Assembly (NCBI GenBank): GCA_033675265.1
Contig: JAUJYZ010000839.1
Location: 1 to 64,000 of the forward strand
DNA from: Actinostola sp. cb2023
Taxonomy: Eukaryota > Cnidaria > Anthozoa > Actiniaria > Actinostolidae
Reading direction: 5' to 3'
Length of the DNA: 64,000 nt
Each line of letters opens with the position of its first letter. The first letter of the stretch is position 1. Of the stretch, positions 2,790 through 43,400 are shown piece after piece. The notes under the pieces are model-generated. The model was given only the letters and a program-made list of their open reading frames with translations, was not told the DNA's origin and searched no databases. Made by a program: the position numbers and the translations under genes.

Positions 2790-5700
2790 CTGAAAGAAAC
2801 ACAAAAACGATATGAAGGATATAAAAGGTTAACGGGTTGTGTTTAGAAGTATAACCTTACCTTAGTTGGATACCATCCGGGCCCCGAACCGTGCGACCCA
2901 TACGGATTGATATCCCAGTAATCGTACCAAATCGTCTCGATACGCCATTTTACTGAAGGTATCGTCCCTGAAGCGATATTTTCAAATCGTCAAATGAATC
3001 TAATTGAATATCGTATAAATTACTCTCTCTAGTGTTTGATTTATAACTAATTTATTTTATGTTTACTTACGAACTGTTTTCAAAGAGATTCGTAGACCCA
3101 GCGTCGTCAAGATCCAGCTCAAACTCCGATGAAATGCGTTGAGTTCCATGAAGTTTCATGTAGATAAAGCAGTCAGTCCCTGATCCAGACCAGACGTTGT
3201 ACCAACTATCAGTCCTAGTCACAACCCTCACCTTGAAGTACCGGTCTGTACACATAAGAATATGAAATAAACGATCAAATGATGTAATTATAATATAATA
3301 AGTAGAGGGCGAGTGCAATTTTGATACTCTTTGAAAAAACACACTCGTGCAAATTATTTCCAAATTGAACTCGAACCCGTATGATTACCAATTTTCAAAT
3401 AATATTCATGAAAAAAAGTAATTTGCATTGCAGTGCAAATTACCTTTCAACTGCACTGCTCTTAGCCAATCAGAATCGATTTTTTTTCCTCGTGAATATT
3501 ATTATATCAATTAAATCAGTGAAAATCATGTACCTTGAAATAACTGAAAATAATTATTTGTACAGATGTTCTACAACACAACCCTCCCATAACACCACGT
3601 AAAATTGTTCAAAATAGACATAAAACATATATTATTATAGTTACTTACAGTTAGGGTTGGGGTTGCAACGGTACAGAGTGTTAACACGTTTGTAGTCCAA
3701 CAGTGACAACCTTGTATCATCGTTACCTAACTTGGAACACCTTGAAGATGAGATCGTGACGGAGGATGGAGATTTGGCAAACGCTGTCCCCTTGTAATGC
3801 AAAATAGAGTCACAGTCATAAGGAATGCCCAAATCTTTTCCTGGAAAAATTTTGAAATTATCTTCTGTGCCTGTAAAAGAAATGAAACCATACAGTAGCC
3901 AAATTTAAAAACGTATTTTTGAATCAGGTCAAGAAATTGATATGCAACTTACCTGGCTTGATATTATCCTTGTGAATTGTTATATAATTGTCTCTGTCAG
4001 AACGACACTGCTCATGAAGGAAGTCCAGAATATGCATCATCTCGTGTAATACTTTGCCTTTCTTTCCCGCACAACTACCAGACAGGTAACAGGACTGCTT
4101 GCCGTTTCCCTGATATCCCACAGCGGCATGACATCTGATATGGATCAGCAAATAAATAATTCAATTCTTTATTTATGGCGGCCATAACTGAAAATATGGT
4201 CGAATACATTGATAGCCCGATTTTCAGACGGTTCACGTATCAAACGCTGTCGCTTCTCCGTCTGATTGCCTATTGTTTGAATTTTGAATAATCAATTGAG
4301 ATATGCAAAGAATGAAATCGCTCGGAAAAAAACAATGATATCGATCGTAAAAAAAAACACTGAAAGGTAAACACTTCGGGGTTTTCTATCACACATGCAT
4401 GTGATTTAGTAATTTGTTTGTGATGTGAGTCACGCCGAAATATGTCTTGTAAATCTTTATACTCAAGATTATCGTACAGTTCCTGCTACATCGACCATTT
4501 GGAACAATAATATATATTTGCATCAAAGCATGCCTAACGAAGATGAGGAAATACTTGAAGATGTCTTCATCGTTACAAGAACTTGTTGAAAATTTAAGAA
4601 CATCAATAATAAACACAAATAGTCTTCAAATAAAGCGTATAAACAACGAGTCCTTGCCTATCGTGTTGCAGCGAAATTCTAGCTAGTGAACGAAGGGCGC
4701 CATCTGAAGTGATAAAGACTTACAAATACATATTTTCTTTCGATAAAGTTTTTGATTACTTATTTTTGCTCAGGAAAAAAGTTCTGGTATTCCAAAGACG
4801 ATACAAGCTTTTCGCATGCACACCCTTCTAATTCGTCCGCCATTTTTACACTGATTTCATGCATTATTTGCATACCTCACTGAGAATACTACAAGGCTCG
4901 CCTTGACTGGTCACAATTCAAACAATAGTAGAAAACAAGGGCAATCAGACGGGAATTGGGGAGGAAGCGACAACGTATGACACGTGAACCGTCTGAAAAA
5001 TCATGATAGTTGATGGACAGATATTATTGGTTGAATGTCGAATGATATGATGGAAGAATGATAGTGTGTATCGTTTTATAAGACACTAACCCGCTGCCAC
5101 TTTGAAAGGACACATAGTTGCTTTTTGAGACACGTGGTACAAATCGAATGCACGTCTTGGCATTGAAGACTTCAATTGCTCTTTGAAGGACTTCAGAATT
5201 AACTAACGAATCGAACGATTTTTTGTTATTTCATGATCATCACATGTGGAGTGGAGTGGAGTGGAGTGAAGTGAAGTGGAGTGGAGTGGAGTGGAGTGGA
5301 GTGGAGTGGAGTGGAGTGGAGTGGAGTGGAGTGGAGTGGAGTGGAGTGGAGTGGAGTGGAGTGGAGTGGAGTGGAGTGGAGTGGAGTGGAGTGGAGTGGA
5401 GTGGAGTGGAGTGGAGTGGAGTGGAGTGGAGTGGAGTGGAGTGGAGTGGAGTGGAGTGGAGTGGAGTGGAGTGGAGTGGAGTGGAGTGGAGTGGAGTGGA
5501 GTGGAGTGGAGTGGAGTGGAGTGGAGTGGAGTGGAGTGGAGTGGAGTGGAGTGGAGTGGAGTGGAGTGGAGTGGAGTGGAGTGGAGTGGAGTGGAGTGGA
5601 GTGGAGTGGAGTGGAGTGGAGTGGAGTGGAGTGGAGTGGAGTGGAGTGGAGTGGAGTGGAGTGGAGTGGAGTGGAGTGGAGTGGAGTGGAGTGGAGTGGA

Positions 5701-8700
5701 GTGGAGTGGAGTGGAGTGGAGTGGAGTGGAGTGGAGTGGAGTGGAGTGGAGTGGAGTGGAGTGGAGTGGAGTGGAGTGGAGTGGAGTGGAGTGGAGTGGA
5801 GTGGAGTGGAGACCCATCACTTTGAGTGTAAGGGATAGTGACAAGATAACACTTACCACTTTGTGTGTAAGGTATAGTGACAAGATAACACTAACCACTT
5901 TGCGTGTAAGGTAGATTGACAAGATAACACTTACCACTTTGAGTGTAAGGTATAGCGACAAGATAACACTTAGCACTTTGAGTGTAAGGAATAGTGACAA
6001 GATAACACTTACCACTTTGAGTGTAAGCTATAGTGATAAGATAACACTTACCACTTTGAGTGTAAGGTATATAGTGACAAGATAACACTTACCACTTTGT
6101 GTAAGGTATATAGTGACAAGATAACACTTACCACTTTGTGTAAGATATAGAGACGAGATAACACTTACCACTTTTAGTGTACTAAGGTATAGTGACAAGA
6201 TAACATTTACCACTTTGTGTAAGGTATAGTGACAAGATAACACTTACCACTAGTTGTGTGTAAGGTAGAGTAACAAGATAACACTTACCACTTTGCGTGT
6301 AAGGTAGATTGACAAGATAACACTTACCACTTTGAGTGTAAGGTATAGCGACAAGATAACACTTAGCACTTTGAGTGTAAGGAATAGTGACAAGATAACA
6401 CTTACCACTTTGAGTGTAAGCTATAGTGATAAGATAACACTTACCACTTTGAGTGTAAGGTATATAGTGACAAGATAACACTTACCACTTTGTGTAAGGT
6501 ATATAGTGACAAGATAACACTTACCACTTTGTGTAAGATATAGAGACGAGATAACACTTACCACTTTTAGTGTACTAAGGTATAGTGACAAGATAACATT
6601 TACCACTTTGTGTAAGGTATAGTGACAAGATAACACTTACCACTAATTGTGTGTAAGGTAGAGTAACAAGATAACACTTACCACTTTGAGTGTAAGGGAT
6701 AGTGACAAGATAACACTTACCACTTTGAGTGTAAGGTTTAGTAACAAGATAACACTTACCATTTTGTGTATGGTAGAGTGACAAGATAACACTTAGCACT
6801 TTGAGTGTAAGGATTAGTGACAAGATAACACTTAGCACTTTTAGTGTACTAAGGTATAGTGACAAGATAACATTTACCACTTTGTGTAAGGTATAGTGAC
6901 AATATAACACTTACCACTAATTGTGTGTAAGGTAGAGTGACAAGATAACACTTACCACTTTGAGTGTAAGCTATAGTGATAAGATAACACTTACCACTTT
7001 GAGTGTAAGGTATATAGTGACAAGATAACACTTACCACTTTGTGTAAGATATAGAGACGAGCTAACACTTACCACTTTTAGTGTACTAAGGTATAGTGAT
7101 AAGATAACATTTACCACTTTGTGTAAGGCATAGTGACAAGATAACACTTACCACTAATTGTGTGTAAGGTAGAGTAACAAGATAACACTTACCACTTTCA
7201 GTGTAAGGGATAGTGACAAGATAACACTTACCACTTTGTGTGTAAGTTATAGTGTCAAGATAACACTAACCACTTTGCGTGTAAGGTAGATTGACAAGAT
7301 AACACTTACCACTTTGAGTGTAAGGTATAGTGACAATATAACACTTACCACTTTGAGTGTAAGCTATAGTGATAAGATAAGACTTACCACTTTGAGTGTA
7401 AGGTATATAGTGACAAGATAACACTTACCACTTTGTGTAAGATATATAGTGACAAGATAACACTTACCACTTTGTGTAAGATATAGAGACGAGATAACAC
7501 TTACCACTTTTAGTGTACTAAGGTATAGTGACAAGATAACATTTACCACTTTGTGTAAGGTATAGTGACAAGATAACACTTACCACTAATTGTGTGTAAG
7601 GTAGAGTAACAAGATAACACTTACCACTTTGAGTGTAAGGGATAGTGACAAGATAACACTTACCACTTTGTGTGTAAGTTATAATGTCAAGATAACACTA
7701 ACCACTTTGCGTGTAAGGTATAGTGACAAGATAACACTTACCACTAATTGTGTGTAAGGTAGAGTAACAAGATAACACTTACCACTTTGAGTGTAAGGGA
7801 TAGTGACAAGATAACACTTACCACTTTGTGTGTAAGTTATAGTGTCAAGATAACACTAACCACTTTGCGTGTAAGGTAGATTGACAAGATAACACTTACC
7901 ACTTTGTGTAAGATATATAGTGACAAGATAACACTTACCACTTTGAGTGTAAGCTATAGTGATAAGATAAGACTTACCACTTTGAGTGTAAGGTATATAG
8001 TGACAAGATAACACTTACCACTTTGTGTAAGATATATAGTGACAAGATAACACTTACCACTTTGTGTAAGATATAGAGACGAGATAACACTTACCACTTT
8101 TAGTGTACTAAGGTATAGTGACAAGATAACATTTACCACTTTGTGTAAGGTATAGTGACAAGATAACACTTACCACTAATTGTGTGTAAGGTAGAGTGAC
8201 AAGATAACACTTACCACTTTGAGTGTAAGCTATAGTGATAAGATAACACTTACCACTTTGAGTGTAAGGTATATAGTGACAAGATAACACTTACCACTTT
8301 GTGTAAGATATAGAGACGAGCTAACACTTACCACTTTTAGTGTACTAAGGTATAGTGATAAGATAACATTTACCACTTTGTGTAAGGCATAGTGACAAGA
8401 TAACACTTACCACTAATTGTGTGTAAGGTAGAGTAACAAGATAACACTTACCACTTTCAGTGTAAGGGATAGTGACAAGATAACACTTACCACTTTGTGT
8501 GTAAGTTATAGTGTCAAGATAACACTAACCACTTTGCGTGTAAGGTAGATTGACAAGATAACACTTACCACTTTGAGTGTAAGGTATAGTGACAATATAA
8601 CACTTACCACTTTGAGTGTAAGCTATAGTGATAAGATAAGACTTACCACTTTGAGTGTAAGGTATATAGTGACAAGATAACACTTACCACTTTGTGTAAG

Positions 8701-11700
8701 ATATATAGTGACAAGATAACACTTACCACTTTGTGTAAGATATAGAGACGAGATAACACTTACCACTTTTAGTGTACTAAGGTATAGTGACAAGATAACA
8801 TTTACCACTTTGTGTAAGGTATAGTGACAAGATAACACTTACCACTAATTGTGTGTGTAAGGTAGAGTAACAAGATAACACTTACCACTTTGAGTGTAAG
8901 GGATAGTGACAAGATAACACTTACCACTTTGTGTGTAAGTTATAATGTCAAGATAACACTAACCACTTTGCGTGTAAGGTATAGTGACAAGATAACACTT
9001 ACCACTAATTGTGTGTAAGGTAGAGTAACAAGATAACACTTACCACTTTGAGTGTAAGGGATAGTGACAAGATAACACTTACCACTTTGTGTGTAAGTTA
9101 TAGTGTCAAGATAACACTAACCACTTTGCGTGTAAGGTAGATTGACAAGATAACACTTACCACTTTGTGTAAGATATATAGTGACAAGATAACACTTACC
9201 ACTTTGAGTGTAAGCTATAGTGATAAGATAAGACTTACCACTTTGAGTGTAAGGTATATAGTGACAAGATAACACTTACCACTTTGTGTAAGATATATAG
9301 TGACAAGATAACACTTACCACTTTGTGTAAGATATAGAGACGAGATAACACTTACCACTTTTAGTGTACTAAGGTATAGTGACAAGATAACATTTACCAC
9401 TTTGTGTAAGGTATAGTGACAAGATAACACTTACCACTAATTGTGTGTAAGGTAGAGTAACAAGATAACACTTACCACTTTGAGTGTAAGGGATAGTGAC
9501 AAGATAACACTTACCACTTTGTGTGTAAGTTTATAATGTCAAGATAACACTAACCACTTTGCGTGTAAGGTATAGTGACAAGATAACACTTACCACTAAT
9601 TGTGTGTAAGGTAGAGTAACAAGATAACACTTACCACTTTGAGTGTAAGGGATAGTGACAAGATAACACTTACCACTTTGTGTGTAAGTTATAGTGTCAA
9701 GATAACACTAACCACTTTGCGTGTAAGGTAGATTGACAAGATAACACTTACCACTTTGTGTAAGATATATAGTGACAAGATAACACTTACCACTTTGTGT
9801 AAGATATAGAGACGAGATAACACTAACCACTTTGTGTGTAAGGTAGAGTAACAAGATAACACTTACCACTAATTGTGTGTAAGGTAGAGTAACAAGATAA
9901 CACTTACCACTTTGAGTGTAAGGGATAGTGACAAGATAACACTTACCACTTTGTGTGTAAGTTATAGTGTCAAGATAACACTAACCACTTTGCGTGTAAG
10001 GTAGATTGACAAGATAACACTTACCACTTTGTGTAAGATATATAGTGACAAGATAACACTTACCACTTTGAGTGTAAGCTATAGTGATAAGATAAGACTT
10101 ACCACTTTGAGTGTAAGGTATATAGTGACAAGATAACACTTACCACTTTGTGTAAGATATATAGTGACAAGATAACACTTACCACTTTGTGTAAGATATA
10201 GAGACGAGATAACACTTACCACTTTTAGTGTACTAAGGTATAGTGACAAGATAACATTTACCACTTTGTGTAAGGTATAGTGACAAGATAACACTTACCA
10301 CTAATTGTGTGTAAGGTAGAGTAACAAGATAACACTTACCACTTTGAGTGTAAGGGATAGTGACAAGATAACACTTACCACTTTGTGTGTAAGTTATAAT
10401 GTCAAGATAACACTAACCACTTTGCGTGTAAGGTATAGTGACAAGATAACACTTACCACTAATTGTGTGTAAGGTAGAGTAACAAGATAACACTTACCAC
10501 TTTGAGTGTAAGGGATAGTGACAAGATAACACTTACCACTTTGTGTGTAAGTTATAGTGTCAAGATAACACTAACCACTTTGCGTGTAAGGTAGATTGAC
10601 AAGATAACACTTACCACTTTGTGTAAGATATATAGTGACAAGATAACACTTACCACTTTGAGTGTAAGCTATAGTGATAAGATAAGACTTACCACTTTGA
10701 GTGTAAGGTATATAGTGACAAGATAACACTTACCACTTTGTGTAAGATATATAGTGACAAGATAACACTTACCACTTTGTGTAAGATATAGAGACGAGAT
10801 AACACTTACCACTTTTAGTGTACTAAGGTATAGTGACAAGATAACATTTACCACTTTGTGTAAGGTATAGTGACAAGATAACACTTACCACTAATTGTGT
10901 GTAAGGTAGAGTAACAAGATAAAACACTTACCACTTTGAGTGTAAGGGATAGTGACAAGATAACACTTACCACTTTGTGTGTAAGTTATAATGTCAAGAT
11001 AACACTAACCACTTTGCGTGTAAGGTATAGTGACAAGATAACACTTACCACTAATTGTGTGTAAGGTAGAGTAACAAGATAACACTTACCACTTTGAGTG
11101 TAAGGGATAGTGACAAGATAACACTTACCACTTTGTGTGTAAGTTATAGTGTCAAGATAACACTAACCACTTTGCGTGTAAGGTAGATTGACAAGATAAC
11201 ACTTACCACTTTGTGTAAGATATATAGTGACAAGATAACACTTACCACTTTGTGTAAGATATAGAGACGAGATAACACTTACCACTTTTAGTGTACTAAG
11301 GTATAGTGACAAGATAACATTTACCACTTTGTGTAAGGTATAGTGACAAGATAACACTTACCACTAATTGTGTGTATGGTAGAGTGACAAGATAACACTT
11401 AGCACTTTGAGTGTAAGGAATAGTGACAAGATAACACTTAGCACTTTTAGTGTACTAAGGTATAGAGACGAGATAACACTTACCACTTTTAGTGTACTAA
11501 GGTTTAGTAACAAGATAACACTTACCACTTTGTGTATGGTAGAGTGACAAGATAACACTTAGCACTTTGAGTGTAAGGTATAGTAACCAGATAACACTTA
11601 CCACTTTGAGTGTAAGGTATAGTGACAAGATAACAGTTACCACTTTGAGTGTAAGGTATAGTGACAAGATAACACTTACCACTTTGAGTGTAAGATACAT

Positions 11701-14700
11701 AGTGACAAGATAACACTTACCACTTTGAGTGTAAGGTATAGTGACAAGATAACACTTACCACTTTCAGTGTAAGGTATAGTAACAAGATAACACTTACCA
11801 CTTTGAGTGTAAGGCATAGTGACAAGATAACACTTACCACTTTGTGTGTAAGGTATAGTGACAAGATAACACTAACCACTTTGAGTGTAAGGTATAGTGA
11901 TAAGATAACACTGACCGCTTCGAGTGTAAGGTATAGTGACAGTATCGCCACTTTTGGGCCACTCGTATTCTTTGTCATCAAAGGGCTGTCTTTTAACCCG
12001 CTTGTCATCGCTTGTGTACCTGTGCTTAGGAAGAACCATGTCTCCCACAAGTATTTCATCTGAAAGCAATAAATGCCATATTAAATCTGATCAGCATTAA
12101 ATAAATGTCAAAGTTCCAAAAACATCCATCATACCATCCGATAAAATCACGTCCTCTGGATCATTCTCATCTACTTGAACTGGAGGACCTGTCAAGAGAA
12201 TATGTACAATATATATTGTACATGTTGATTGTTTCCAACTTTCTATTGTCGATGTCGGGTAAAGTTCAAGAATCCCTTCGTCGGATTCATTAATCCTTCT
12301 TCGGTTTGGAGGTCAAGGGGGTCGAGGACATCTCAACATTTGAAAGCGATTATTCATTCTGCGTCAAGAACGTAATAATCAAAATCGAAATCGTCTGCCA
12401 ATTTGTTGGCACTCGTTTAGATAATTGTACTCGATTTTTCTTTATTGTACTCTACTGATCGGATACAGTTGGATAATAATCGTTATAACCATAATTAATT
12501 AATTTACAGATTTTTACATTTATGGCAACAGCTTCCTTTAAGAAATATAAAAGGTTTTTCGTGTTTGCATAGCCTGATGCAAACACGAGGGGAAATTTGG
12601 GAGAAGTCAAGTGCTGATGTGTGAAACCGAGCCGAAGGCGACGGAGACGTTGTTGGCTGGTTTATCTCGCAATTAAATTAAAAATAAACAGACAATGAAG
12701 TTATTTTATCACTGTAGACTCTATCTTTCATGGGGTCGCGGTAAAACGTGGAAACGGAAAGGCGGAAAGCGGAAAGCGGAAAGTCGGTAAAATGCGGAAA
12801 GCGGAAAGTCGGTAAAACGCGGAAAGCTAAACACGAATATACCAATCCGTACCCCTCTCCCGGTCCTTCAATTTTTACCTTCCCAGTCCCCCTGAGCTGT
12901 TCACAGGCGACCTTTGGTCTGATCTGGGATACGTCAATGATAGCACATGTTCATGTCACCAAAGTTCTGGGTAGGTAGAAATGGTAAATTCGTCACTTTC
13001 CCATAGCAACACGATGTCCACTGATTGGTCAACAGATCAAGGTAGTTTCTGTTTACAGATACCTGAGAATCGGATTTTTTTACTCTGCAAACACGAGGTC
13101 GTTATTAGCGTTCTTTGACATGCTGCTCGTCGATGCCAGGCAGGTATGTGCTCTCGATCGCTTTATTTTGATTGCTTTTCTGATTTAAGAAGTGCATGGG
13201 TTTATGTTTTAAAGTGCTATATACCTGAGTGTCATGAATATTAACCCGGCTATTAACCCCCAAGTATTTTACATGATATGACCCCTGAAGTCCATGAATA
13301 AGCATGAATGTCAGCCGCGTCCCTCTAAGTTTACTCATGGGTACTGTAAGCGGTATGTTTAAAATTGAGAAACTTAGGTTTAGTGATGGCAAGATCTGTA
13401 GATTTGTTAAAATCGGTAGAGCATTCATTGCAGGATGACATAGCGTGATGAGTGACCAATTTAATAATCTTGCTTTTGTGAATCATTATCAACAACCATT
13501 AATTGCCTCGACTCATCTCCGCGAGTCCACGAAAGGTCGAACCTATGTAACGCGGCAAGTAAACACCTTTGGGATCTAACGTAGGTGTCCGCTTATTACG
13601 GGAGGTTAACAAAAATCATCAGGGAAGGTCGGGAAGGGAAGGGAGCTAAAAAGCGATCCAAGGTTATTTGTATTTTTTATATTTTTAGATCTGAATTATT
13701 GTTGATGATCCGTTAACGATGTCTGACGACGACAATCCGAGAAAAAAAAGGGTAAGAATAAAATAACTTCATATCGAAGCACAGGTAGCCCAAGTTCAAC
13801 ATTTGTATAAGAGAATGTATGGGAATTATTCAATGGTCGATTTTCAGCGTAAATATTGAATAAATGTTATTGTAACTTACTATGTGTCTTGAAGCCAGTT
13901 CCTGCCAATGTCTGGAGCGAGTTTCAGAATTTTTCAGAATTTTTCCCCTCCCCTATCACAAACCAATACCATGGCTAAAAGATCCACTAACCCTCCCTCG
14001 GCTTCGGGGATATTTAATCACTATATAATATCCCTCAGTGCCGTGGTATTACTTATAATAAATAGAGGTTATTTACCGACTGGGAGGTCCGTACAGGGAA
14101 AAACTGTGCCTGAGGTCTTGAAAGTGCTGACCGAGGCCGAAGGCCCGAGGTCAGCACTTTCAAGACCGAGGGCACAGTTTTTCCCTGTACGGACCGACCT
14201 AAGTCGGTAAATAACTTATTTATTTTTTTCCAAGCAAGCGAAAACTAAAACATTTTTTGTCGCACGACTTTTATTTGTTTACATCTTGCTGAAACAATAC
14301 AATGGCATTGACGTCATTCGTTCCCAAATATGGAAAATTACAAGTGTCTGTGAACTCTGTCACTTTCATTCATGAAACACGAGGCGTGTTTTGTACGTGC
14401 TTTTAAAGCAAAACTAGGCTCAATTTACAAAGAAAAGCACGATCTAACTGTCCTAACTGTCTTCAACTTCCAAGGCAAATCAATCGGTGTCCTGAACACT
14501 TTCGTCGACACGCTTTCGTTTAGCTTCACTGCTGTGAACGTCGACTCTCTTGGAATCAGTGATCAAGTTGAAGTTGAAAGTACAACCTTCAAATTTACCG
14601 ATGGTAGCACTTGAAAATACACCACCACAAGCAGATTTTATCACATCTTCTTCACCTTGTACGGAGAGTGATGTTGTGCTCATGGCCTGAGTAGAACTTG

Positions 14701-16658
14701 TACTTTGGGTGTTCGTAGCATTGGATGTTGACGAACGACTAAGAACCATTGACATTTGTCGTTGATGCGAAGTAGATGCAGACTTGTAGGCGTCAAGACT
14801 CTTCAGGTTCTTATGGCCACTTAGCTGAGCTACGTAGTTTTCAGGGATGCCAGCGTCCATTAGGCGTGAGATGCATGTTTTTCTAACGGAATGGTTACTG
14901 ACATTGCCAGGCAAACCAACGGCTTGAGCAGCACTCACCAAAAATTTCCCGATGGAATTCTTTCCTAAAGGGCTGTTTGAATACCATATTCCTGAGCCTT
15001 CTTTTCTCTTATGGTTTACTGCCAAAAAGAATGGAGAATCTGGCTTTTTCATCGCTTCAGGTCGATGACTTGCGAAGGCCTTGTACAGCTTTACTGGACA
15101 TCGTTCGTTGTTTGTGGGGTGAGCTGTTGGACTGAAAGCTCTTTGGTGGCCATCTCCGTGTCTTGTTTTGGACCCTCGCTCAGCTCTCCAAACTAGGATT
15201 TCAGTTCCAGTTTCTGGATCTTTATCAAGGCTTACATCGCCCCATTTTAACTTTCTGGACTCGTCTCGAGCTCTGAATCCAAAATGGAGGGAAAATGCCC
15301 ACCAAATGGTTCTCTGAAGTACTTCGGGGTTATGGTCTCCAAACTGCCCTTTCTCAAACAACAAGTCCTCTTCAGCTTCGGTCATAATTCTTGCAGCTTG
15401 AGGACGATTACCTTTGGCATGGATTTCAACTAGCTGACGCTTCTTTGCTACGAGAACTTCCCGACTTGTTGAACTCCTGGTCTTTAAACAAATTCAAAGG
15501 AGAGTTCTTGTTGTTAAGATACCTTTGGATACTTCTGTGTATCGATGTCAGTGACGAAGGCTCGTACTCGCCGCCATTTTTTTTTCTTCACGTTCATGAA
15601 GAACCTACAGAGCAGGACATTCATCTCAACAGCAGGTATTTCCTCGATTTCCCTGTTCTCGTTGTTTGAAGAACAGAACTTTTTCCATATTCCTATGTCA
15701 TAATCGGTTTTTTTTCTTAGTTGTCTCGGGTCTTTGGTCCTCGATAAACTCTTGGATATCTTGTGATATGCTGTCGTCGTTTCTTGTAGTTGTAGTTGTA
15801 GCGTTTTCGTTTTCTTTATCCCTTTCGGGATAGTAAAATTCACTGTCACTGTGATATGACATTGAGTGAATAAAATGTACACTGAGAAAACAACCGCCTA
15901 GTGAATGTTGTTGTTATTTATACTGTTGCTTTTTGCTGTTTTGTTATTGTTACGAGCGTTTGTTGTTGTGAGCGGGCCGGTTTTCGCGGTCCGGTTTTCG
16001 GGGTCCGGATGGGAAAATCCGGCCCGCTCTCAAACCAATCAGAGCGCGCGATTTCTTAGGATACCGGACCGAAAAAAAAAAAAAATGCACATACTGGCAT
16101 GAACTCAAGCATAAAACGGTATGGAATGATGTGCACATAACAGCAACAAACAAACAAACAACAAATTAAAATTATATTAACCAGTTGGATATCAGAAATA
16201 AGCAAAACTACTAACATCCTCCAAAAACTCTTGGAAGAATCATGTCTCGCACTACACTTTGATCTGAATACAACATACAATGTACTTGTATCAAAACAAT
16301 GATTACAATAAAACATCCCAGTGAATAATGTCCAACATACCACGAACTGAGATCTTGTTCTCAGGAACATCTTCATCAATCTGCCGTGGAGGACCTGCAT
16401 GAGAATACATTGTGAATGTACACTGGCATGAACTCAAGCATTAAACGGTATGGAATGTACAGCAACGGACAAAGAAACAAACAACAAAATGATATCAACC
16501 AATTAGATATCAAAAATACGCATAACTAACACCCTCCAAAACATTCAAAACTGACAATGCGAACTTCGTCCGATACCTGTTTCCTTCTTAGGGGGAGAGC
16601 CTCCAATGACCACAATAGATACAGCAACAAGTACGAGAGTCACCAAAAGCCTTACCAT
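2670..16658 (-). CDS. Astacin-like metalloprotease with PLAT domain, gene A (10 exons)
   Basis: Inferred secreted zinc metallopeptidase of the astacin family (M12A). Exons in order: 16577-16658 (signal peptide), 16341-16394, 12135-12188 (54-nt propeptide exons), 11916-12059 (GD motif, furin site, mature N-terminus), 5091-5202, 3953-4134 (zinc motif), 3649-3870 (Met-turn region), 3071-3245 and 2861-2967 (PLAT), 2670-2789 (C-terminus). Introns are GT/AG and all phases agree except at exon 9. The zinc motif is HEMMHILDFLHE, with Asp where astacins have Gly, and the Met-turn reads SILHY, with Leu for Met. Exon 9 is 2 nt shorter than in gene B, shifts the frame and reaches a stop, so the PLAT domain is probably truncated unless there is a sequence error. 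Introns hold a 6.1-kb minisatellite, a foldback and a recombinase element. Exons 1-2 might instead belong to a third, broken copy (see 16211-16263). Confidence 0.75.
2861..2967 (-). pseudogene. Gene A exon 9: PLAT exon with frame disruption
   Basis: 107 nt against 109 in gene B. In the phase set by exon 8 it reads DTFSKMAYRDDL, then diverges after a missing base (TTTGG against TTTGGG) and ends in a stop at the exon's last codon. A second missing base would return it to the frame of exon 10. Splice sites are intact (CTTCAG, GTAAGG). Either gene A encodes a truncated PLAT domain or the sequence has indel errors. Confidence 0.65.
3071..3245 (-). CDS. Gene A exon 8: PLAT domain N-terminal half
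   Basis: 175 nt. It encodes RYFKVRVVT, SGSGTDCFIYMKLHGTQRIS and SEFELDLDDAG, the first strands of a PLAT/LH2 beta-sandwich. It is 18 nt longer than gene B exon 8, an in-frame insertion (RTDSWYNVW) in the first loop. Donor TTC|GTAAGT, phase 2. Confidence 0.75.
3649..3870 (-). CDS. Gene A exon 7: Met-turn region and catalytic domain end
   Basis: 222 nt. It encodes GKDLGIPYDCDSILHYKGTA and ends in DYKRVNTLYRCNPN. The usual SxMHY Met-turn is SILHY, with Leu for Met but the Tyr kept. Extra Cys residues (YDCD, SSRC) suggest additional disulfides. Donor AACT|GTAAGT. Confidence 0.85.
3953..4134 (-). CDS. Gene A exon 6: zinc-binding motif
   Basis: 182 nt. It encodes CHAAVGYQGNGKQSCYLSG, then HEMMHILDFLHEQCRSDRD. 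The three zinc-ligand His residues and the catalytic Glu are present. The Gly normally following HExxHxx is Asp, and QTR is QCR. Donor CCAG|GTAAGT. The gene B copy at 35708-35889 is nearly identical, so the Asp is not a random lesion. Confidence 0.85.
4216..5003. mobile_element. Foldback MITE in gene A intron 5
   Basis: Inverted arms begin CCCGATTTTCAGACGG and end CCGTCTGAAAAATCA. Flanking TGATAG at 4210-4215 and 5004-5009 is a likely target duplication. Gene B has a short intron here with no element, an empty site showing the insertion followed gene duplication. A small related hairpin is at 24900-24976. Confidence 0.75.
5091..5202 (-). CDS. Gene A exon 5: astacin catalytic domain, first part
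   Basis: 112 nt encoding VLQRAIEVFNAKTCIRFVPR and SNYVSFQSGSG. The C-x-RF-x-PR block is typical of astacins. The acceptor is CGTTAG. Gene B has CAG one codon earlier, so gene A lost the original acceptor but kept frame with a shifted one. The donor is GCGG|GTTAGTG. Confidence 0.75.
5245..5811. repeat. (GGAGT)n pentanucleotide satellite
   Basis: About 113 nearly perfect copies of GGAGT on the plus strand (ACTCC on the gene strand), ending about 40 bp before the gene A exon 5 acceptor. Open in several frames only because it is periodic. A degenerate version occupies the same place in gene B (36250-36940), so it predates the gene duplication. The perfect gene A copy implies recent expansion or homogenisation. 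Confidence 0.95.
5812..11915 (-). repeat. 39-bp minisatellite made of exon 4 end plus 5' splice site (gene A)
   Basis: About 6.1 kb, roughly 155 units, 37-39 bp each. On the gene strand a unit reads GTAAGTGTTATCTTG, then GTCACTATACCTTACACT, then CAAAGTG, which is the splice donor plus a copy of the exon 4 end (GTCACTATACCTTACACTCG). The array begins directly at the real donor. A full unit is 13 codons (KCYLVTIPYTQSG), so each donor copy sits in the same phase. Unit variants carry GTTAGTG, GCTAAG or 37-bp frame-breaking versions. Longer repeats of about 590 and 1260 bp are superimposed. The many short open frames here are repeat artefacts. Confidence 0.9.
11916..12059 (-). CDS. Gene A exon 4: propeptide end, furin site, mature N-terminus
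   Basis: 144 nt, phase 1 in and out. It encodes EILVGDMVLPKHR, with the GD matching the astacin propeptide FxGD aspartate switch, then the proprotein-convertase site KRVKRQ, then the mature start EYEWPKSGDTVTIPYTRS. WP and TIPY are the usual astacin N-terminal signature. The donor reads AGCG|GTCAGTG. Downstream, the 39-bp minisatellite repeats the last exon bases and the donor. Confidence 0.8.
12135..12188 (-). CDS. Gene A exon 3: 54-nt propeptide exon
   Basis: Acceptor TTGACAG, donor GTATGATG, phase 1 at both ends. It encodes GPPVQVDENDPEDVILSD, an acidic cassette nearly identical to the two gene B cassettes at 37574 and 38151. Confidence 0.75.
12189..14040. other. Gene A intron 2, left part: repeats and one possible short exon
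   Basis: A GGAAAGC/GGTAAAACG heptamer tract lies at 12752-12830, and an inverted GTGTTTGCA/TGCAAACAC pair bounds 12560-13095. A palindrome with CCAATACCATGGC/GCCGTGGTATT arms lies at 13964-14050. At 13719 a plus-strand ATG opens MSDDDNPRKKR directly followed by GTAAGA, a possible first exon that I cannot assign. No other coding signal. Confidence 0.35.
14058..16031 (-). mobile_element. Tyrosine recombinase element 1 with palindromic ends
   Basis: A 160-bp palindrome (14058-14222, arms containing GGTCCGTACAGGGAAAAACT) lies at the 3' side of the recombinase frame. A shorter palindrome (15969-16031, GAGCGGGCCGG against CCGGCCCGCTC) lies on its 5' side, followed by CCAATCAG. No reverse transcriptase, RNase H or methyltransferase is present, which argues against DIRS. 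The arrangement matches element 2 (52740-54795). Exact termini and target duplications are not resolved. Confidence 0.6.
14480..15862 (-). pseudogene. Crypton-like tyrosine recombinase, copy 1 (frameshifted)
   Basis: ATG at 15860-15862 opens MSYHSDSEFYYPERDKENEN. An N-terminal SAM-like region follows (IGIWKKFCSSNNENREIEE), then the catalytic core with Arg in HFGFRARDE, HSVRK (HxxR), and SGHKNLKSLDAY (His and Tyr nine residues apart, as in tyrosine recombinases). Related to DUF3504/Crypton-derived proteins such as ZMYM and QRICH1. Breaks: an extra A in runs of 8 A (about 15710) and 9 A (about 15580), plus a shift near 15460. The core from 15385 to the stop at 14480 is open and continuous. Lies in gene A intron 2. 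Confidence 0.75.
16211..16263 (-). pseudogene. Relic of an exon-4-like propeptide exon
   Basis: After a TATTCAG acceptor, the phase-1 reading QSVVRDMILP aligns with the exon 4 start (EILVGDMVLP in gene A, EILLGDMVLP in gene B). It then diverges and meets a TAG. The surrounding 16085-16420 segment repeats at 16425-16560. This suggests a partial internal duplication, or that exons 1-2 here are the 5' remains of a third astacin copy. Confidence 0.5.
16341..16394 (-). CDS. Gene A exon 2: 54-nt propeptide exon
   Basis: Starts after CATGCAG, ends before GTATG, and is phase 1 at both ends. It encodes GPPRQIDEDVPENKISVR, an acidic 18-residue cassette homologous to exon 3 and to two exons in gene B. 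It can be gained or lost without changing frame. Confidence 0.65.
16577..16658 (-). CDS. Gene A exon 1: signal peptide
   Basis: 82 nt, the same length as gene B exon 1. It encodes MVRLLVTLVLVAVSIVVIGG followed by SPPKKET, a classic hydrophobic secretion signal. It ends CAG|GTATCG in phase 1. The ATG has a TATAAATA box upstream. Confidence 0.7.
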
Positions 16659-23412: not shown

Positions 23413-23785
23413 CTAGTGAACAGCATGCTCAAGTATACTATCTTTGAGAAAACAGGGGAACTGATATAGAACTAGGTGTTGATTCGTACGAGCTGGGGAA
23501 CAGGTATATTCAATTAATGCAACTAGTGAACAGAATGCTCAAGTTTCTTATAAGAAAATAGAGAAATTTAAATTTAAATTTAAATTAAAATTAAAATAGA
23601 GAAAACAGGGGGAACAGATATAGGTCTTGGAAGGATCACTTTTGGAGCTCTGGCTCGTGGACAGTTGTAACGATACAATGTTAACTTTGCAATCGTCAAG
23701 AAACCTATTCATGGAGGCATAACACAGTACCCTTTTCATGGAGACATAACATGCTGTTCATTATACCAAGACTTACCAATGTGCT

Positions 23786-24597
23786 ACCCTATTCATGGAG
23801 GCATAACATACTACCCTTTTCATGAAGGCATAACATACTAACCTTTTCATGGAGGCATAACATACTAGCCTTTTCATGAAGGCATAACATACTAACCTTT
23901 TCATGGAGGCATAACATACTACCCTTTTCATGGAGGCATAACATACTAACCTTTTCATGGAGGCATAACATACTAACCTTTTCATGGAGGCATAACATAC
24001 TAACCTTTTCATGGAGGCATAACATACTACCCTTTTCATGAAGGCATAACATACTAACCTTTTCATGGAGGCATAACATACTACCCTTTTCATGAAGGCA
24101 TAACATACTAACCTTTTCATGGAGGCATAACATACTACCCTTTTCATGGAGGCATAACATACTAACCTTTTCATGGAGGCATAACATACTAACCTTTTCA
24201 TGGAGGCATAACATACTAACCTTTTCATGAAGGCATAACATACTAACCTTTTCATGAAGGCATAACATACTAACCTTTTCATGGAGGCATAACATACTAC
24301 CCTTTTCATGGAGGCATAACATACTAACCTTTTCATGGAGGCATAACATACTAACCTTTTCATGAAGGCATAACATACTAACCTTTTCATGAAGGCATAA
24401 CATACTAACCTTTTCATGGAGGCATAACATACTACCCTTTTCATGGAGGCATAACATACTAACCTTTTCATGGAGGCATAACATACTAACCTTTTCATGG
24501 AGGCATAACATACTAACCTTTTCATGGAGGCATAACATACTAACCTTTTCATGAAGGCATAACATACTAACCTTTTCATGGAGGCACAACATACTAA
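23786..24597. repeat. 27-bp tandem satellite, about 30 units
   Basis: Unit ACCTTTTCATGGAGGCATAA plus CATACTA, with GGAGG/GAAGG and ACC/CCC variants interspersed. On the minus strand it is open as MKRLVCYAS repeats, and in a second frame as MLCLHEKVS. The 27-bp length keeps any frame open, so I do not call a gene. It abuts a dispersed SINE-like sequence at 24605. Confidence 0.95.
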
Positions 24598-34467: not shown

Positions 34468-37400
34468 TGTTATTGAAGGTGCAGGAGTAGCTTAATGTAC
34501 TCTAAGGACATACACGGCTTAATAACTGACGACAGGCCTATCATATCATACATCTTGGTTTCCTCTGATATTATAGTGTAACATATTACAGAGAAAAATT
34601 ACATCAGAGAAATTTGCAAAAGCAACAACAATAGCCATAATTCTAAACGAATACGTTTTACATATCTACTTTAATGCCTTCAGTTGACGAAATGTTTCGT
34701 TGAACATCGCACAGAATCCTATTGTCTTTTGGGACATGTACTTACAGTCGAACGATTTCTAAAGGCGTCATTAATATGCATGAAATGACGCGATAGAAAC
34801 CCTGTCTACCCAGTGAAATACTATCAATGGATCAACGGCTCTTCTAGAAATCAACATGTACACGAACGTCATGCCTTTATAATATGCTTTTTGCTGGTTT
34901 TTGAGAGGTTTTGCGTATTAGTTATCTGTTAAAGCGAGAATGAGTTGAACTCACGTCGGCCGCTAAGAGTCATTCAACAGTGACAACAAACGACTTGAAG
35001 ACAGAAGCCGAATTGATTACTTCGTAGTTTTTCATCGCATACACTATAAACTCGTCAAAAACTTACTTAACGACTGAACTTACTCTTTATATAAGCTATC
35101 AAATGATAGCTTTTGAGTATTAGTTATCTGTTAAAGCGAGATTTTGTATCTTCAACCTTAGTTTTAATAAAAACTGCCAAGCTTTCGGGCTAAGCGCCCA
35201 TCTTTAATTTAATTAGGTCTTGACCAATTAGAAGACGCGGATCTTTATTTTCACCTGAGTAATTATACTCATGATATAATAATAATGATATGTGATTCCC
35301 AATGGTTATAGATGTTTCTTGGTATATTATTGGATGTATTTCAATTTAATTGACGCAATCAATCAATGAACAGCATGGTGTAAGTAATTAAGCTAGTACT
35401 TACAGTTAGGGTTGGGGTTGCAACGGTACAGAGTGTTAACACGTTTGTAGTCCAACAGTGACAACCTTGTATCATCGTTACCTAACTTGGAACACCTTGA
35501 AGATGAGATCGTGACGGAGGATGGAGATTTGGCAAACGCTGTCCCCTTGTAATGCAAAATAGAGTCACAGTCATAAGGAATGCCCAAGTCTTTTCCTGGA
35601 AAAATTTCGAAATTCGCTTCTGCGCCTGTAAAATATATGAAACCATACAGTAACCAAATTTAGAAACGTATTTTTGAATCAGGTCAAGAATTTGATATGC
35701 AACTTACCTGGCTTGATATTATCCTTGTGAATTGTTATATAATTGTTTCTGTCAGGACGACACTGCTCATGAAGGAAGTCCAGAATATGCATCATCTCGT
35801 GTAATACTTTGCCTTTCTTTCCCGCACAACTACCAGACAGGTAACAGGACTGCTTGCCGTTTCCCTGATATCCCACAGCAGCATGACATCTGAAATGGAT
35901 AAGTAAAGAAATAATTCAATACTTTATTTATTGCCATAGCTGAAAATATGGTCGAATACATGGAAACGGCTAGGATAGGTAGATGGACAGATATTATTTG
36001 TTGAATGTCGGATGACACTGACGGAAAAATGATAGAGTGATCTATCGTTTTACAAAACACTAACCCGCTGCCACTTTGAAAGGCCACATAGTTGCTTTGT
36101 GAGCCACGTGGTACAAATCGAATGCACGTCTTGGCATTGAAGACTTCAATTGCTCTTTGAAGGACTTCAGAATCAACTCCTGAATTATGTAAGCAATAGA
36201 AAATAAAGCGTGAAGTCAACGAACTTACTTACTAACGGTTTTTGTTATTTCACCAAGTGGAGGAGTGGTGCAGAGCTAGCAAATCGTATTGACGAGTAGA
36301 AGAGAGTGGAGCGGCGTACGATGAAGGCGAGTGGAATGTCCTGGGGTGGAATGGAGTGTTGAAATACATTGCAGTGCATAGGAATGCAGTGAGGTGAGGT
36401 GTAGCGAAAGAGAGTGGAGTGGAGCGGAGCGGAGCGAATTTGAGAGCAGCGGAGCGAGACGGGTACACAGTACGAGAACGGATTCGAATGGGAAGTAAAG
36501 CAAGTGAAGTGGAGGAGTGTTGTGGAGTGAAGTGAAGTGCATTGCATAGGATAGCTGTGAGAGAAGGAGAGTGGAGTGGAAGCGGAGAGAGTCGGAGTAA
36601 CATACATGAAGGAGTAGTGAAGTGGAGTACAGACCGGCGGAGCGGAGTGCACGCCACTGCACTTGATAATAAAGTGCAGTAGAGGAGTGGAGTCAAGGAG
36701 AGTGAAGTAGACAAGATTGGAGTACAGTTGAATGCAGTAGAATAAAGGAGAGTGGAATGGACTGATTGGTTAAACCGAAGAGAAGTAGCTAGAATACAGC
36801 AGAGTGCAATGCAGTAGTTTGTAGTGGAGAAGAGATGAGATGAGAGGAAAGGAGTACAATGGAGTAAAGTGGAGTGAAATGCCGTGCAGTCGATAGAGTG
36901 GAGAGGAGGGGAGTGGAATAGAGTGAAATGGTGTGGACTTGAGTGTAATGTATAGTGACAGATAACACTTACCACTTTGTGTAAGGGAGAGAGACAAGAT
37001 AACACTTACCACTTTCAGTGTAAGGTATAGTGACAATATAACACTTACCACTTTGAGTGTGAGGTGTAGAGACAATATGACACTTACCACTTTGAGTGTA
37101 AGGTATAGAGACAAGTTAACACTTACCACTTTGAGTGTTAGGTGTAGAGACAAGAGAACACTTACCACTTTGAGTGTAAGGTATAGTGACAAGATAACAC
37201 TTACCATTTTGTGTAAGGTATAGAGACAACATAACACTTACGACTTTGAGTGTAAGGTATAGTGACAAGATAACACTTACCATTTTGTGTAAGGTATAGA
37301 GACAACATAACACTTACGACTTTGAGTGTAAGGTATAGTGACAAGGTAACACTTACCACTTCGAGTATAAGGTATAGTGACAGTATCACCACTTTTGGGC

Positions 37401-40400
37401 CACTCGTAATCGTCATCATCAAATGCCTGTCGTTTAACCCGCTTATCATAGCTTGTGTACCTGTGCCTTGGAAGAACCATGTCTCCCAGCAATATTTCAT
37501 CTGAAAACAATACATATCGTATTAAATATCAGCATGAATGTTAAAGATGCCAAACAAATAACGTCCAGCATACCATCGAACAAATTCACGTCCTGAGGAT
37601 CATTCTCATCCACCTGGTCTGGAGGACCTGACAAGAGAATACATAAAAATATACATTGTTGATTGTTTTCAGGTTTTAATTGGTTGTAGGTGTCGTTAAA
37701 GTATGAGTTACTGGTTATTCATATGGAAGAGAATAGGTACAAGTCCCAAAGAGAGCATCGGTAATATTGATGGACCTTTTTGTAGTTTCCCAGAATGCTT
37801 CATGATTCTGCGCGCGCAAGCGAGGTCAAGGGGAAAAATATTTAGAATTGATCGTGTATTGAGAAAAATATTACTACTGTATCTATTAATCAAGAACAGG
37901 AAAAAACTATTTTCTTTGCTTGAGAATTTGCATCTATCTTTATAATTCTTCTAACGCACTTTTAATTTAAAAGTCTAAGTTGTCTACTGAATTTCTTCAT
38001 TCTCTCTTAATATTTTTGATCTATTTTGTACCCTGACCTCGCTTGCACGCGCAGAATCATGAAGCATTCTGGGAAACTACGAAAAGGTCCATTGGTTTTG
38101 TTGATATGTATATTTTCTCCAAATTTAAAGTCGTTTAGTGTCCAGCATACCATCTGATAAATTCACGTCCTGAGGATCATTCTCATCTACCTGATCAGGA
38201 GGACCTGACAAGAGAATACATAAAATATACATTGTACATGTTGATTGATTCCAGCTTTTCATTGGTTGTCGATAAAGTATGTATTACTATTTATTCATAT
38301 ATGCATGGAAGAGAATAGGTAGAAGTCCGAAAGAGAGCATCGATATCGGTAATATTGAATGTTAATCTGTTTGCTTGTTTATTTTTGGATGTTTCTCGGT
38401 GTTGCAGATCACCAGATGACGTCATGATTCTTAATTCTTGCACATATTCTGTTGCATTTCTCGGTGTATATCGGATTTATATATAGTTTACTATGGGTAC
38501 GGCAGTGACAAATGGACAAATTTTCGAGGTACGATATCCGGCCTTGCACTGACACGCTGACAAACTGACACATTCTGTCAGTAGACTGTCAGCACCAACA
38601 AACTGACACATTCTGTCAGTAAACTGTCAGCACCAACAAACTGACAGATTCTGTCAGCAAACTGTCAGCACTGACAAACTGACAAGATTTTCAAGCTACG
38701 ATATCCGGCCTTGCACTGACACGCTGACACGCTGACAAACTGACACATTCTGTCAGTAAACTGTCAGCTGACAAACTGACAGATTCTGTCAGTAGACTGT
38801 CAGCACCAACAAACTGACAGATTCTGTCAGCAAACTGTCAGCACTTACAAACTGACAAGATTTTCAAGCTACGATATCCGGCCTTGCACTGACACGCTGA
38901 CACGCTGACAAACTGACACATTCTGTCAGTAAACTGTTAGCTGACAAACTGACAGATTCTGTCAGCAAACTGTCAGCACTGACAAGATTTTCAAGCTACG
39001 ATATCCGGCCTTGCACTGACACGCTGACAAACTGACACATTCTGTCAGCAAACTGTCAGCTGACAAACTGACAGATTCTGTCAGTAAACTGTCAGCTGAC
39101 AAACTGACAAGATTTTCAAGCTACGATATCCGGCCTTGCACTGACACGCTGACACGCTGACAAACTGACACATTCTGTCAGTAAACTGTCAGCACCGACA
39201 AACTGACAGAAAATTATTATTTTAGTTTTAATAATTCTATGAATTAGTTCCGTAGCATGAAACTTGACGTACCATGCAATAAATATTGACAAATAACGCA
39301 ATGTCTATGTATTCTGTGGAAACATTTAGAGTATATTTTAAATACTGTAGCTAGCTACAGTACCGCTCAAAAGTAACTTACCAGGTCTCGTATCGTTTCT
39401 CGCGATACGAGTTGATAGAAGCTCTTTCTACTTTGCGCAACAAAGTTTTGCAACCTGATACACGAAAATGTGGTGCGCGACAAGTTGCGCGAACGGTGGT
39501 AATACGAGAAACATTGCTCTGCAACTTTCAACGCAACAATGTTGCGCGACAAGTTGCACGATTTTGTTGCCCGTATTACTGCACCTTAACAATGAACGAT
39601 ACATTTAAATACACATTGGTACCGGCCTATTAAGCGGACACCCTCGGACCTAGCCTACAGTCCGATTAGGAGTTTCACTGTAGTTACATTTAAAAAACAT
39701 TCCTGTTTATGTTTGTTGAGTTTAAAGCCCGGTTTAAAGGTCATTACTCGCTGGATATATATGAGAGCCAGTATCTGACCTCAAGGCTTTATAACTCAAT
39801 CAAGGTCACCACGTGTAGTAGTTGCATGCTAACATGCTTGTTGTAAATGTTGTTAAAGGGGCAGTGTCAAGCCTCACGCATGCGCATTAAAATCAAAACA
39901 ATAACACTCGGTTGAGAAGCCTACCTTGCCCGGTAGTGAGTTACAAAACCCCCCTAAAACCGTTCTAATCGCTAAATAAATGACCTACAGGACTCATGTA
40001 GATACTAATCTTTATTTAGAAAGCAATTTTAGAACTCAATATATCAAAAGGACTGAATTCTAGATGTGAATTCACGGCGATATCATTTTTCAACGGCCGA
40101 TCAAATAAAGCACAGGAAGCCCAACACATAAGTAGATGGTGGGAAACTCACCGGTTTACAAGTCGTTCTACGTGAGTTTTTCTCTTCAAAAGTCATGAAC
40201 AGTACTGCACCTACGATTGATGATCAAGATTCCTTCGCAATCGACCAGAATTGCCGGTTTACAATTCGGTTTTCTTCACTCGAGGATGATGGCGGCCTGC
40301 CTCTCAACGGCTGTTCGACACTTTTTTCAACGGCTTCAAAGTCACTTCTAAGATGAAATAATTCCCACTAGGAATTGTTGAAAATGAAGAACATGCTTTG

Positions 40401-43400
40401 AAGTATTACTAGTGATCCATTAGACGCTTGAACAAACATGATTAAGGTCGATGGAAACGGATTCAAAACATCGAAAATAATAAAAGTCCACGGTGGACTT
40501 TTATTATTTCTCGCTTCTTCGTACCCAGGCTAACGCGGTCATATGGCTTGACACTGCCCCTTTAAAAAGGGCCGTAAATGGCAAATACATTGTAAACTAT
40601 AAATGGCAAAAACACGATTGAGTATCTTATTCATGTACTACTAGTGCTTATTTTTTCTCCGAACGTGTTGTTTTAAAAGATAATGCAAATGAGGGCAATA
40701 AACAACACGTCAAAGCAACATTCTCACGTGCACGAGCAGTGGCACTTTATGTTTTAATTAAGATTGAAAAGATAACGGCGTAAAAACAAACACTGAAGCG
40801 TTGCCTGTTTATAATTGATTACCTTATAAAAGTTGAATTAGCCTTGAGATAAAGCTTGTAGAACAGAGTGACCTTGCAAAAATGTACATTGCAGATTAAG
40901 CATTGCGATGCGAGTTTATCATATCGCGATACGAATTCGTCTCGCGATACGATAAACTCCTCTCGCGATACGATACTGGACTTTTCTCGCGATACGATAA
41001 ACTTTTCTCGCGATACGATCAACTCGTATCGCGATACGATCAACTCGTATCGCGAGAAACGATACGAGACCTGGTAAGTTACTTTTGAGCGGTACTGTAG
41101 CTAGCTACAGTATTTAAAATATACTCTAAATGTGTCCACAGAATACATAGACATTGCGTTATTTGTCAATATTTATTGCATGGTACGTCAAGTTTCATGC
41201 TACGGAACTAATTCATAGAATTATTAAAACTAAAATAATAATTTTCTGTCAGTTTGTCGGTGCTGACAGTTTACTGACAGAATGTGTCAGTTTGTCAGCG
41301 TGTCAGCGTGTCAGTGCAAGGCCGGATATCGTAGCTTGAAAATCTTGTCAGTTTGTCAGTGCTGACAGTTTGCTGACAGAATCTGTCAGTTTGTTGGTGC
41401 TGACAGTCTACTGACAGAATGTGTCAGTTTGTCAGCGTGTCAGTGCAAGGCCGGATATCGTAGCTTGAAAATCTTGTCAGTTTGTCGGTGCTGACAGTTT
41501 GCTGACAGAATCTGTCGGTGCTGACAGTTTACTGACAGAATGTGTCAATTTGTCAGCGTGTCAGTGCAAGACATATCGTACCTCGAAAATTTGTCCATTT
41601 GTCACTGCCGTACCCATAGTAAACTATATATAAATCCGATATACACCGAGAAATACAACAGAATATGTGCAAGAATTAAGAATCATGACGTCATCTGGTG
41701 ATCTGCAACACCGAGGAACAGCCTTATTTTTGATTTATAAAAGGCGTTTTATGCGCACTTTATGAAAACGAAAGTACGTCCTGTCATCATGAAAAAAGGC
41801 ACCATATATTGAAACATATACACACTAATTTCATATTAAGGCCCAGTCCACACTATTGCGTTTTCGTTTGAAAACGCATTTTGGCCTTGCTTCCACTCGA
41901 AAACGCCTAGTGCTACGGCGAAAACGGAGGCTTTCTCTTCGAAAGCGCTGACATCACGCCTATTGGTTTCGGTGTAAACTATAGCTAACAGCGTTTTCGA
42001 TCGTTTTAGTGTGGACAAAACGAATCGAAATGCATGCGTTTTCAAATGAAATCGCATTATTGTGGACGAGTGAATATGATCCGAAGAAGCTAGTGTGGAC
42101 ACGCAGTTATTACAACGTTTCCGATAAAATGAAAACGGACACTTTCGAAATTAACATGCATTAGTGTGAACTTGCGTCACGTGATCTCATTGAGAGTGGA
42201 TATAATAGGAAGTGGTCTTATTTAGACCTCTCAAATTCCGTAACAAAACAGCGTACAAACATAAACAACAGCTTCTGTAGATCCTTTTATCGAAATGACT
42301 TGAAAATTACACTAAAACAACCCCCAAACTGCTAGGAATGATGGAAGTTCTACTTTTCATGAAAATGTCTCGTAACGGAAATTCGAAAAAAGATTCATGA
42401 AAACGACCATGTTACACGGTGAAACTCTTGCTGAAACCTGTCTCGCACCGTTTCACGAAACAAAAGTTTCACCGTGTAACAAGGCCATAATAAGGCCGTA
42501 TGTATAGAGTCGTTCTCGCCGCCGTATGAGTGGGAAGTAGCTACGGTACGGTTCGTACCATGCAGTGACCGTATCGCGCCATCATCGTGCGGTATCCAAG
42601 CATTCTGATTGGTTGAGAAATGATTTCGCGCGCTGTGTGATTGGTTGAATAAAATGTGTTCGATTCCGTACCGTGACCGTAACTCCGTACCGTATAGGTT
42701 TCTCACTCATACGAAAACGACTCTATAATGGCTTGATAAGGTCCGTAATGACGAAACATGTTACCATTATATGATGACTTGTACGTAAAGATTTACTAAA
42801 GGTTTAGAACCAATCACATAACTTTGACAAGAATTTCAAAATCTTTTCAAGTCCAAATAAGAAGAATTTCAACGGAATATTTTAGTGTATATTTTAAAAT
42901 ACGTTTAATTGATGTATTTATAGTTAGGATGTATTTTAGATAGTTTTATATAGTTTTAATTTATATATAGTTTTCTATTATATTTATGCTTCAGGGCCTC
43001 TATTGATAACCTGAGTAGTATTTTATAACTGACAGAGCTACACTGACTATTGAGATAAATGTTTTCATTCATTCATTTTCCACAATGCGTTCCTCGGATT
43101 TCGGAGAAAAGTTTTTAAATATATATCGTGCCACGCTATGATTGGTAAAACTGAATCGTATATCATTAAATTATTTAAATTATTCAGATTCCAGGCTGAT
43201 CAGATAAGTATATGTCATGTATGTTTATTTATTTTCTATTTGATGTTTATTTGAAATCATTACTTTACCCCCAAACAAGCTCTCATATCTCACTAACAAC
43301 CTATCAACCGTTGTGGCTTGAAATTATGTGATATTGGAATATCTGGCATGATTTTGTATTAAAACATATATCCCCGTTATCTTCTTCGGGTTGTTCATCA

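Follow-up and report, generated by a model that had tools for sequence, protein, structure and literature searches.

The stretch of DNA analysed here, referred to as the window, comprises positions 1 to 64,000 of contig JAUJYZ010000839.1 (assembly GCA_033675265.1) from Actinostola sp. cb2023, a deep-sea vent anemone and member of the Actiniaria. On its minus strand lie two astacin-like genes, gene A and its tandem paralog gene B, and in both of them an array of 39-bp units is found at the same donor position, namely at the end of exon 4. Exon 4 of gene A (11916..12059; 144 nt; astacin homology) ends in ...WPKSGDTVTIPYTRS and is followed by the exon-adjacent donor GCG|GTCAGT, and exon 5 (5091..5202; 112 nt) follows the acceptor TTAG|TT, which is without the pyrimidine tract seen in gene B. 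The corresponding exons of gene B are located at 37357..37500 (exon 4; 144 nt; donor GTG|GTAAGT) and 36065..36179 (exon 5; 115 nt). The annotation of this contig includes a partial gene model, QZH41_008855, the first exon of which is exon 6 of gene A; according to the genome report, annotation combined homology-based with de novo prediction (PMC10803348).

A tandem-repeat finder (TRF) places array A at 5818..11941 of the minus strand, with a period of 39 and 155.7 copies, the array starting inside exon 4. Its unit, TCACTATACCTTACACTCAAAGTG|GTAAGTGTTATCTTG, joins 24 nt from the 3' end of exon 4 to the 15 nt with which the intron starts, and the junction of gene A itself (11901..11939, with the exon end at 11916-11939 and the intron start at 11901-11915) matches the minus-strand unit consensus at 35 of 39 positions, the junction of gene B at 36 of 39. 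Since the best gapless match to the unit outside the arrays reaches only 24 of 39 positions on either strand of the whole window, the likeness between junction and unit is far above chance. The tandem unit spans the exon-intron boundary, with the array lying in the intron and the authentic exon edge forming the first unit. Intron 4 of gene A (11915 to 5203) has a length of 6713 nt, of which 6098 nt (91%) are array, 566 nt pentamer repeat and 49 nt other sequence. A sequence-only reading of this locus had proposed a minisatellite seeded by an exon end together with its own 5' splice site, and both the repeat finder and the alignment of the consensus unit to the exon 4 junction bear this out. 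The same reading let the unit begin at the donor, whereas the first unit of the array is in fact the last 24 nt of the exon, with the donor lying within the unit.

Array B (36939..37382, minus strand; 11.6 copies by TRF) overlaps exon 4 of gene B with its first unit and contains 11 donor anchors, all of them GTAAGT. The rest of this intron (36180..36938, minus strand) consists of degenerate TCCAC-like sequence followed by a polypyrimidine tract and CAG. The search for donor anchors in the arrays allowed up to 5 substitutions, a threshold that more diverged units could escape, and returned 155 anchors for array A (118 GTAAGT, 16 GTTAGT, 12 GTAAAT, 7 CTAAGT, 1 GTCAGT and 1 GTAACT), all 155 with a G at position -1. 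Of the heptamer GGTAAGT, the sense strand of gene A intron 4 contains 118 copies and intron 4 of gene B contains 8, compared to 5 on the rest of the minus strand and 2 on the plus strand. The roughly 150 tandem pseudo-donors that had been predicted for the transcribed strand of gene A are hence present in number, although the two closest to the exon are not GTAAGT.

Genome-wide pattern searches covered 424,152,321 bases in 1594 contigs, the published assembly being given as 424.3 Mb in 1596 scaffolds (PMC10803348). When a 34-nt core of the unit was searched for with 2 mismatches allowed, at least 83 matches were obtained, and all of those listed fall into arrays A and B; among them, no copy of the 39-bp unit as a dispersed repeat was found outside these arrays. 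The reversed core pattern gave no match in the genome. Between array A and the acceptor of gene A lies a near-perfect (TCCAC)n pentamer tract (5246..5811, minus strand; GTGGA on the plus strand; 113 copies), which ends about 40 nt before the acceptor. Since gene B has only degenerate TCCAC-like sequence at this place, the tract of gene A appears to have expanded separately.

When compared with astacins in the PDB, the end of exon 4 in gene A corresponds to their IPY/VPY strand, and the same segment is retained in the Actinostola paralog P0122 (WPKSGDTVTIPYTEASG), in a choriolytic enzyme of Nematostella and in two further homologs. Since this segment is coding and conserved across astacins, it establishes, at the level of sequence comparison, that the exon gave rise to the array and not the reverse. 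With regard to the age of the array, CTCAAAG is found 49 times in array A and 6 times in array B, and CTCGAAG once in each, namely in the exon copy. A variant common to both arrays, next to CTCGAAG in both exons, suggests a single origin, and the array probably predates the split of genes A and B.

If array A is cut between its donors, 154 units with 45 distinct sequences are obtained, and exact repeated blocks extend over up to 21 units. Among the 14 units closest to the exon 11 are singletons, and the last 10 units are all repeated elsewhere in the array; interior units are homogenised and edge units spared. This fits a duplication of blocks by unequal exchange away from the exon. It should be borne in mind that the copy numbers of 155.7 and 11.6 belong to paralogs and not to alleles, and that they come from one assembly. 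From our point of view, the following course of events can be imagined. The 24 nt of exon end and 15 nt of intron start would first have been copied in tandem, slippage and unequal exchange would then have increased the number of 39-bp units, at a later stage by copying entire blocks of as many as 21 units, and growth would have continued until the array made up 91% of gene A intron 4. The donor copies would be by-products of this process, and the array may have been tolerated since the spliceosome would be expected to prefer the donor nearest to the exon. Neutral growth by slippage and unequal exchange is the most likely mechanism, and we are confident in the account as a whole, namely that of a minisatellite seeded by the exon 4 boundary and belonging to the type described as 'mirages' in lancelets.

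Several observations weigh against this account. The stretch of paralog C that is expected to hold an array-free junction reads N. The occurrence of CTCAAAG in both arrays could stem from gene conversion. Furthermore, exons 5-7 of genes A and B (dS 0.023, dN 0.024) are much more alike than exon 4 (dS 0.386, dN 0.074; dS and dN denoting synonymous and non-synonymous divergence), which speaks for a mixed history of the gene pair. Since the dS of exons 5-7 is far below that of exon 4, the 3' halves would have been homogenised or duplicated later than exon 4; judged from these values, the change in divergence falls between exons 4 and 5, where the arrays sit.

The last of these points concerns the donor itself. 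The first unit of gene A has GCG|GTCAGT at the exon, the second GTG|GTTAGT, and GTAAGT appears from the third unit onwards (first at 11837); with a scoring matrix for donors, the exon-adjacent donor reaches 5.3 compared to 9.6 for the array donors. By analogy to human F7 and to the Adh3 and globin genes of lancelets, the exon-proximal donor is expected to be favoured among the array donors, but its lower score makes plain exon-proximal use less certain in gene A. In gene B, the donor next to the exon (GTG|GTAAGT) is strong and the acceptor good, whereas the acceptor of gene A is without the pyrimidine tract and CAG of gene B and has its TTAG 3 nt further on, in frame. We infer that both the exon-adjacent donor and the acceptor of gene A have since been weakened, and as such, its intron 4 may splice poorly or from a shifted donor.

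A search for other exons with donor-bearing arrays, as the sequence-only reading had suggested, returned gene B and, with the same design but another sequence as judged from the units, exons of mTOR and of a dynein heavy chain. The mTOR exon (C103; PDB match 3e-6) is followed by an array of 26 bp x 3.1, whose unit comprises 3 nt of exon and 23 nt of intron; the units at the dynein exon (C866; match 3.2e-5) measure about 36-41 bp, the first consisting of 22 nt of exon and 14 nt of intron. Grouping of the donor-bearing arrays among the matches listed, plus array B, gave 22 arrays, and the 5' edge was viewed for 19 of them (all except C97, which was not fully viewed, C873 and C1508), in most cases by eye from the sequence or a three-frame translation. 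Four of the viewed edges lie at exons with protein homology (astacin genes A and B, mTOR and dynein, three of them independent), one is ambiguous (C48), and at 14 of the 19 no exon was recognised by eye. In two of these 14, C88 (174 kb) and C4, an exon-like open reading frame (ORF) is located upstream, but the array does not reach its donor. At C48 (L048, 393500-397500), a donor-bearing array of 20 bp x 9.9 is placed between the end of an ORF and its inverted copy in a hairpin-like layout; the ORF before the array has no match in PDB or Pfam. At C88 (L043, 173700-176500), an 18-bp x 15.8 array, the outer parts of which form inverted repeats, starts 89 nt past the donor of a kinesin exon (Pfam 3e-8). 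The window itself contains a further 27-bp x 33 array (23702-24597), whose minus-strand units carry AAAAG|GTTAGT and at whose edges no exon was recognised.

The idea that donors are favoured seeds of arrays was dropped, since in four of four scans for three donors in a row the reversed control pattern gave more matches than the donor pattern (748+1219 vs 10213+10161, 9+14 vs 91+57, 65+195 vs 143+304 and 8+7 vs 12+14). These numbers count matches and not arrays, and a reversed motif is an imperfect control. As a rough estimate, perhaps 1 in 6 GGTAAGT in the Actinostola genome is a real donor, if a share of this donor type of about 10% is assumed and combined with the gene and exon numbers given in PMC10803348, and at such a proportion the observed rate of exon-edge arrays needs no special donor preference. 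The sequence-only reading had considered that such a repeat may be a new way for introns to lengthen or for splice sites to increase in number. Intron 4 of gene A did grow in this way, but the idea itself has been published for lancelet globins, and an excess of donor arrays was not found.

Other explanations of array A have to be considered. Its more than 100 consensus U1 sites could be functional and recruit or hold the U1 small nuclear ribonucleoprotein (snRNP), guarding the pre-mRNA against premature polyadenylation or influencing which donor is chosen for exon 4. The 118 GGTAAGT on the sense strand of a single intron would agree with such a role, as would the finding that the majority base is kept in 89-100% of array A units at the six donor positions and in only 48-74% in parts of the exon-derived half. 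However, units that arise by block copying do not render this conservation independent evidence, the 10 units of array B show no clear preference in that direction beyond intact donors, the splicing signals of gene A look weakened, and donor-bearing arrays are not in genomic excess. We thus regard a U1-related function as very unlikely. We see a slighter chance still that the copy number is an assembly artefact, with a real array whose true length is much shorter or longer. Long reads from PacBio were assembled with DBG2OLC and reduced with Redundans, as far as the genome report describes it (PMC10803348), and identical blocks that extend over as many as 21 units pose difficulties to an assembler. 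On the other hand, 11 of the 14 exon-proximal units are singletons, and the homologous array at the paralog and the similar arrays at the mTOR and dynein exons argue that the design itself is real.

Even less probable is that exon 4 continues into the array as coding sequence with repeats of 13 residues. As 39 bp equal 13 codons, no stop interrupts the consensus unit in the frame of the exon and multiples of 3 account for 98 of the 154 spacings between donors, this could be envisaged, but translation continued past exon 4 ends at a stop 14 residues on in gene A and 26 residues on in gene B, the other 56 spacings break the frame, and the P0122 protein runs straight into the next part of the domain. 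The insertion of an unrelated satellite or transposon tract beside the exon, with a likeness due to coincidence or later conversion, can practically be set aside, for although another simple tract, (TCCAC)n, lies in the same intron and repeats make up 62.4% of the genome (PMC10803348), the unit core is restricted to arrays A and B among the matches listed, the junctions match at 35-36 of 39 positions and the exon half encodes conserved astacin sequence.

An array seeded by the exon 4 boundary has counterparts in other animals. Tandem repeats across exon-intron boundaries are known from lancelets as 'mirages', for which a model of intron gain has been published (PMC3087553, PMC3902484). The earlier statement that no named repeat class is formed in this way does therefore not hold, the more so as human F7 intron 7 is a close analogue. 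As far as described in these sources, mirage genes include Adh3 (Branchiostoma floridae and B. lanceolatum) and the globins BflGb6 and BflGb9 (PMC3087553, PMC3902484), to which PGBD5 and TnC were added (PMC3902484). The interior of the lancelet repeats is homogenised and the edge spared, and their splicing and length instability were studied (PMC3087553); for Adh3 and the globins, use of the exon-proximal donor was suggested (PMC3087553, PMC3902484). In these accounts, mirages thus equal array A in being minisatellite-like duplications that span the boundary, with many units bearing splice signals, a homogenised interior and spared edges. Their units measure 10-72 bp in Adh3 or about 150-160 bp in the globins, and BflGb6 haplotypes have 3 and 6 units. 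Array A differs from them by its about 155 units, its share of 91% of the intron and its cnidarian host.

In human F7 intron 7, repeats of 37 bp carry the donor in the first copy, and splicing uses the 5' splice site furthest upstream to the exclusion of the others (PMC6627357). F7 resembles array A in that the authentic donor sits within the leading copy of a row of near-identical repeats that are comparable in length, any of which could present a donor; in genes A and B, too, the authentic donor lies inside the first 39-bp repeat. The number of repeats in F7 is variable, reportedly 5-8, and much smaller than in array A, and whereas the most upstream donor serves in F7, the first donor of gene A is weak. 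Intron gain by tandem duplication, as described in the lancelet globin model and for variable internal tandem repeats in humans (PMC4974935, PMC2812944, PMC3087553), likewise involves a boundary-crossing duplication that supplies extra splice signals. In those cases, however, a new intron arises or is proposed to arise, whereas in gene A an existing one was lengthened. The paralog protein P0122 is collinear across the intron 4 site. No precedent for a boundary minisatellite at a splice site of a sea anemone was found within the searchable literature. Array A hence belongs, as a very large case, to a rare type of repeat known up to now mainly from lancelets, and what is new is the phylum (within the literature searched), the size, and the weakened first donor and acceptor of gene A.

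The remaining features concern the astacin-like genes and their surroundings. Exons 6 and 7 lie at 3953..4134 and 3649..3870 in gene A and at 35708..35889 and 35404..35625 in gene B, all on the minus strand. Exon 6 reads HEMMHILDFLHEQ in both genes, and the Nematostella homolog reads HEMMHTLGFLHEQ. The Gly of what we take to be the zinc motif is replaced by Asp in genes A and B, and the activity of their products may, judging from this exchange, be altered. A third astacin-like copy is present in fragments upstream of gene A (16230-16658) and matches exon 1 and exon 3 of P0122. The surroundings of gene B exon 3 are present twice in a row (37600-38278), with 12125-12265 matching both copies, and gene B thus carries a second duplication, at the level of an exon. 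A distant astacin-like exon elsewhere (C1115; L011, 1641-1900; weak match) is flanked on its acceptor side by an intron with a 22-bp array (AAGAGAGGTATAGTCAGTCAAT) and shows no array at its donor within the 600 bases viewed.

Apart from these genes, the window contains a recombinase-like ORF of 337 aa (14480-15493, minus strand) with 99% identity to QZH41_002174 and 98% to QZH41_019612 of Actinostola, whose listed homologs carry PF12012 and PF00589 (Pfam). A lancelet as host, considered in view of the mirages, was rejected on the basis of such protein identities to Actinostola; a search for the GFP family gave no match, which in itself is no proof of absence. Five loci in both orientations (1357-2274, 38548-39208, 41245-41608, 50958-51524 and 58848-59240) belong to one repeat family with internal tandem repeats (TGTCAGTTTGTCAG... 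/ CTGACAGATTCTGTCAG...), which resembles a dispersed mobile element with an internal minisatellite.

Overall, the present analysis extends a lancelet repeat type with a human analogue to a cnidarian, with about 155 copies at one exon and independent cases at mTOR and dynein in the same genome. One could speculate that the growth of donor-seeded arrays is a general and recurrent way in which animal introns lengthen, in cnidarians, lancelets and humans alike, and not an oddity of lancelets. We put this forward as a tentative idea, which if true would mean that the anemone holds many such arrays. Gene A would then also provide a natural experiment on the competition between an exon-adjacent donor and its more than 100 stronger copies. 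Previous work on splice-site choice in such a setting was limited to a few repeats, and gene A offers a natural test of 5' splice site choice among more than 100 near-identical sites of which the nearest is weak. The pair of genes A and B illustrates to what extent the junction of an intron can supply the material for its reconstruction.

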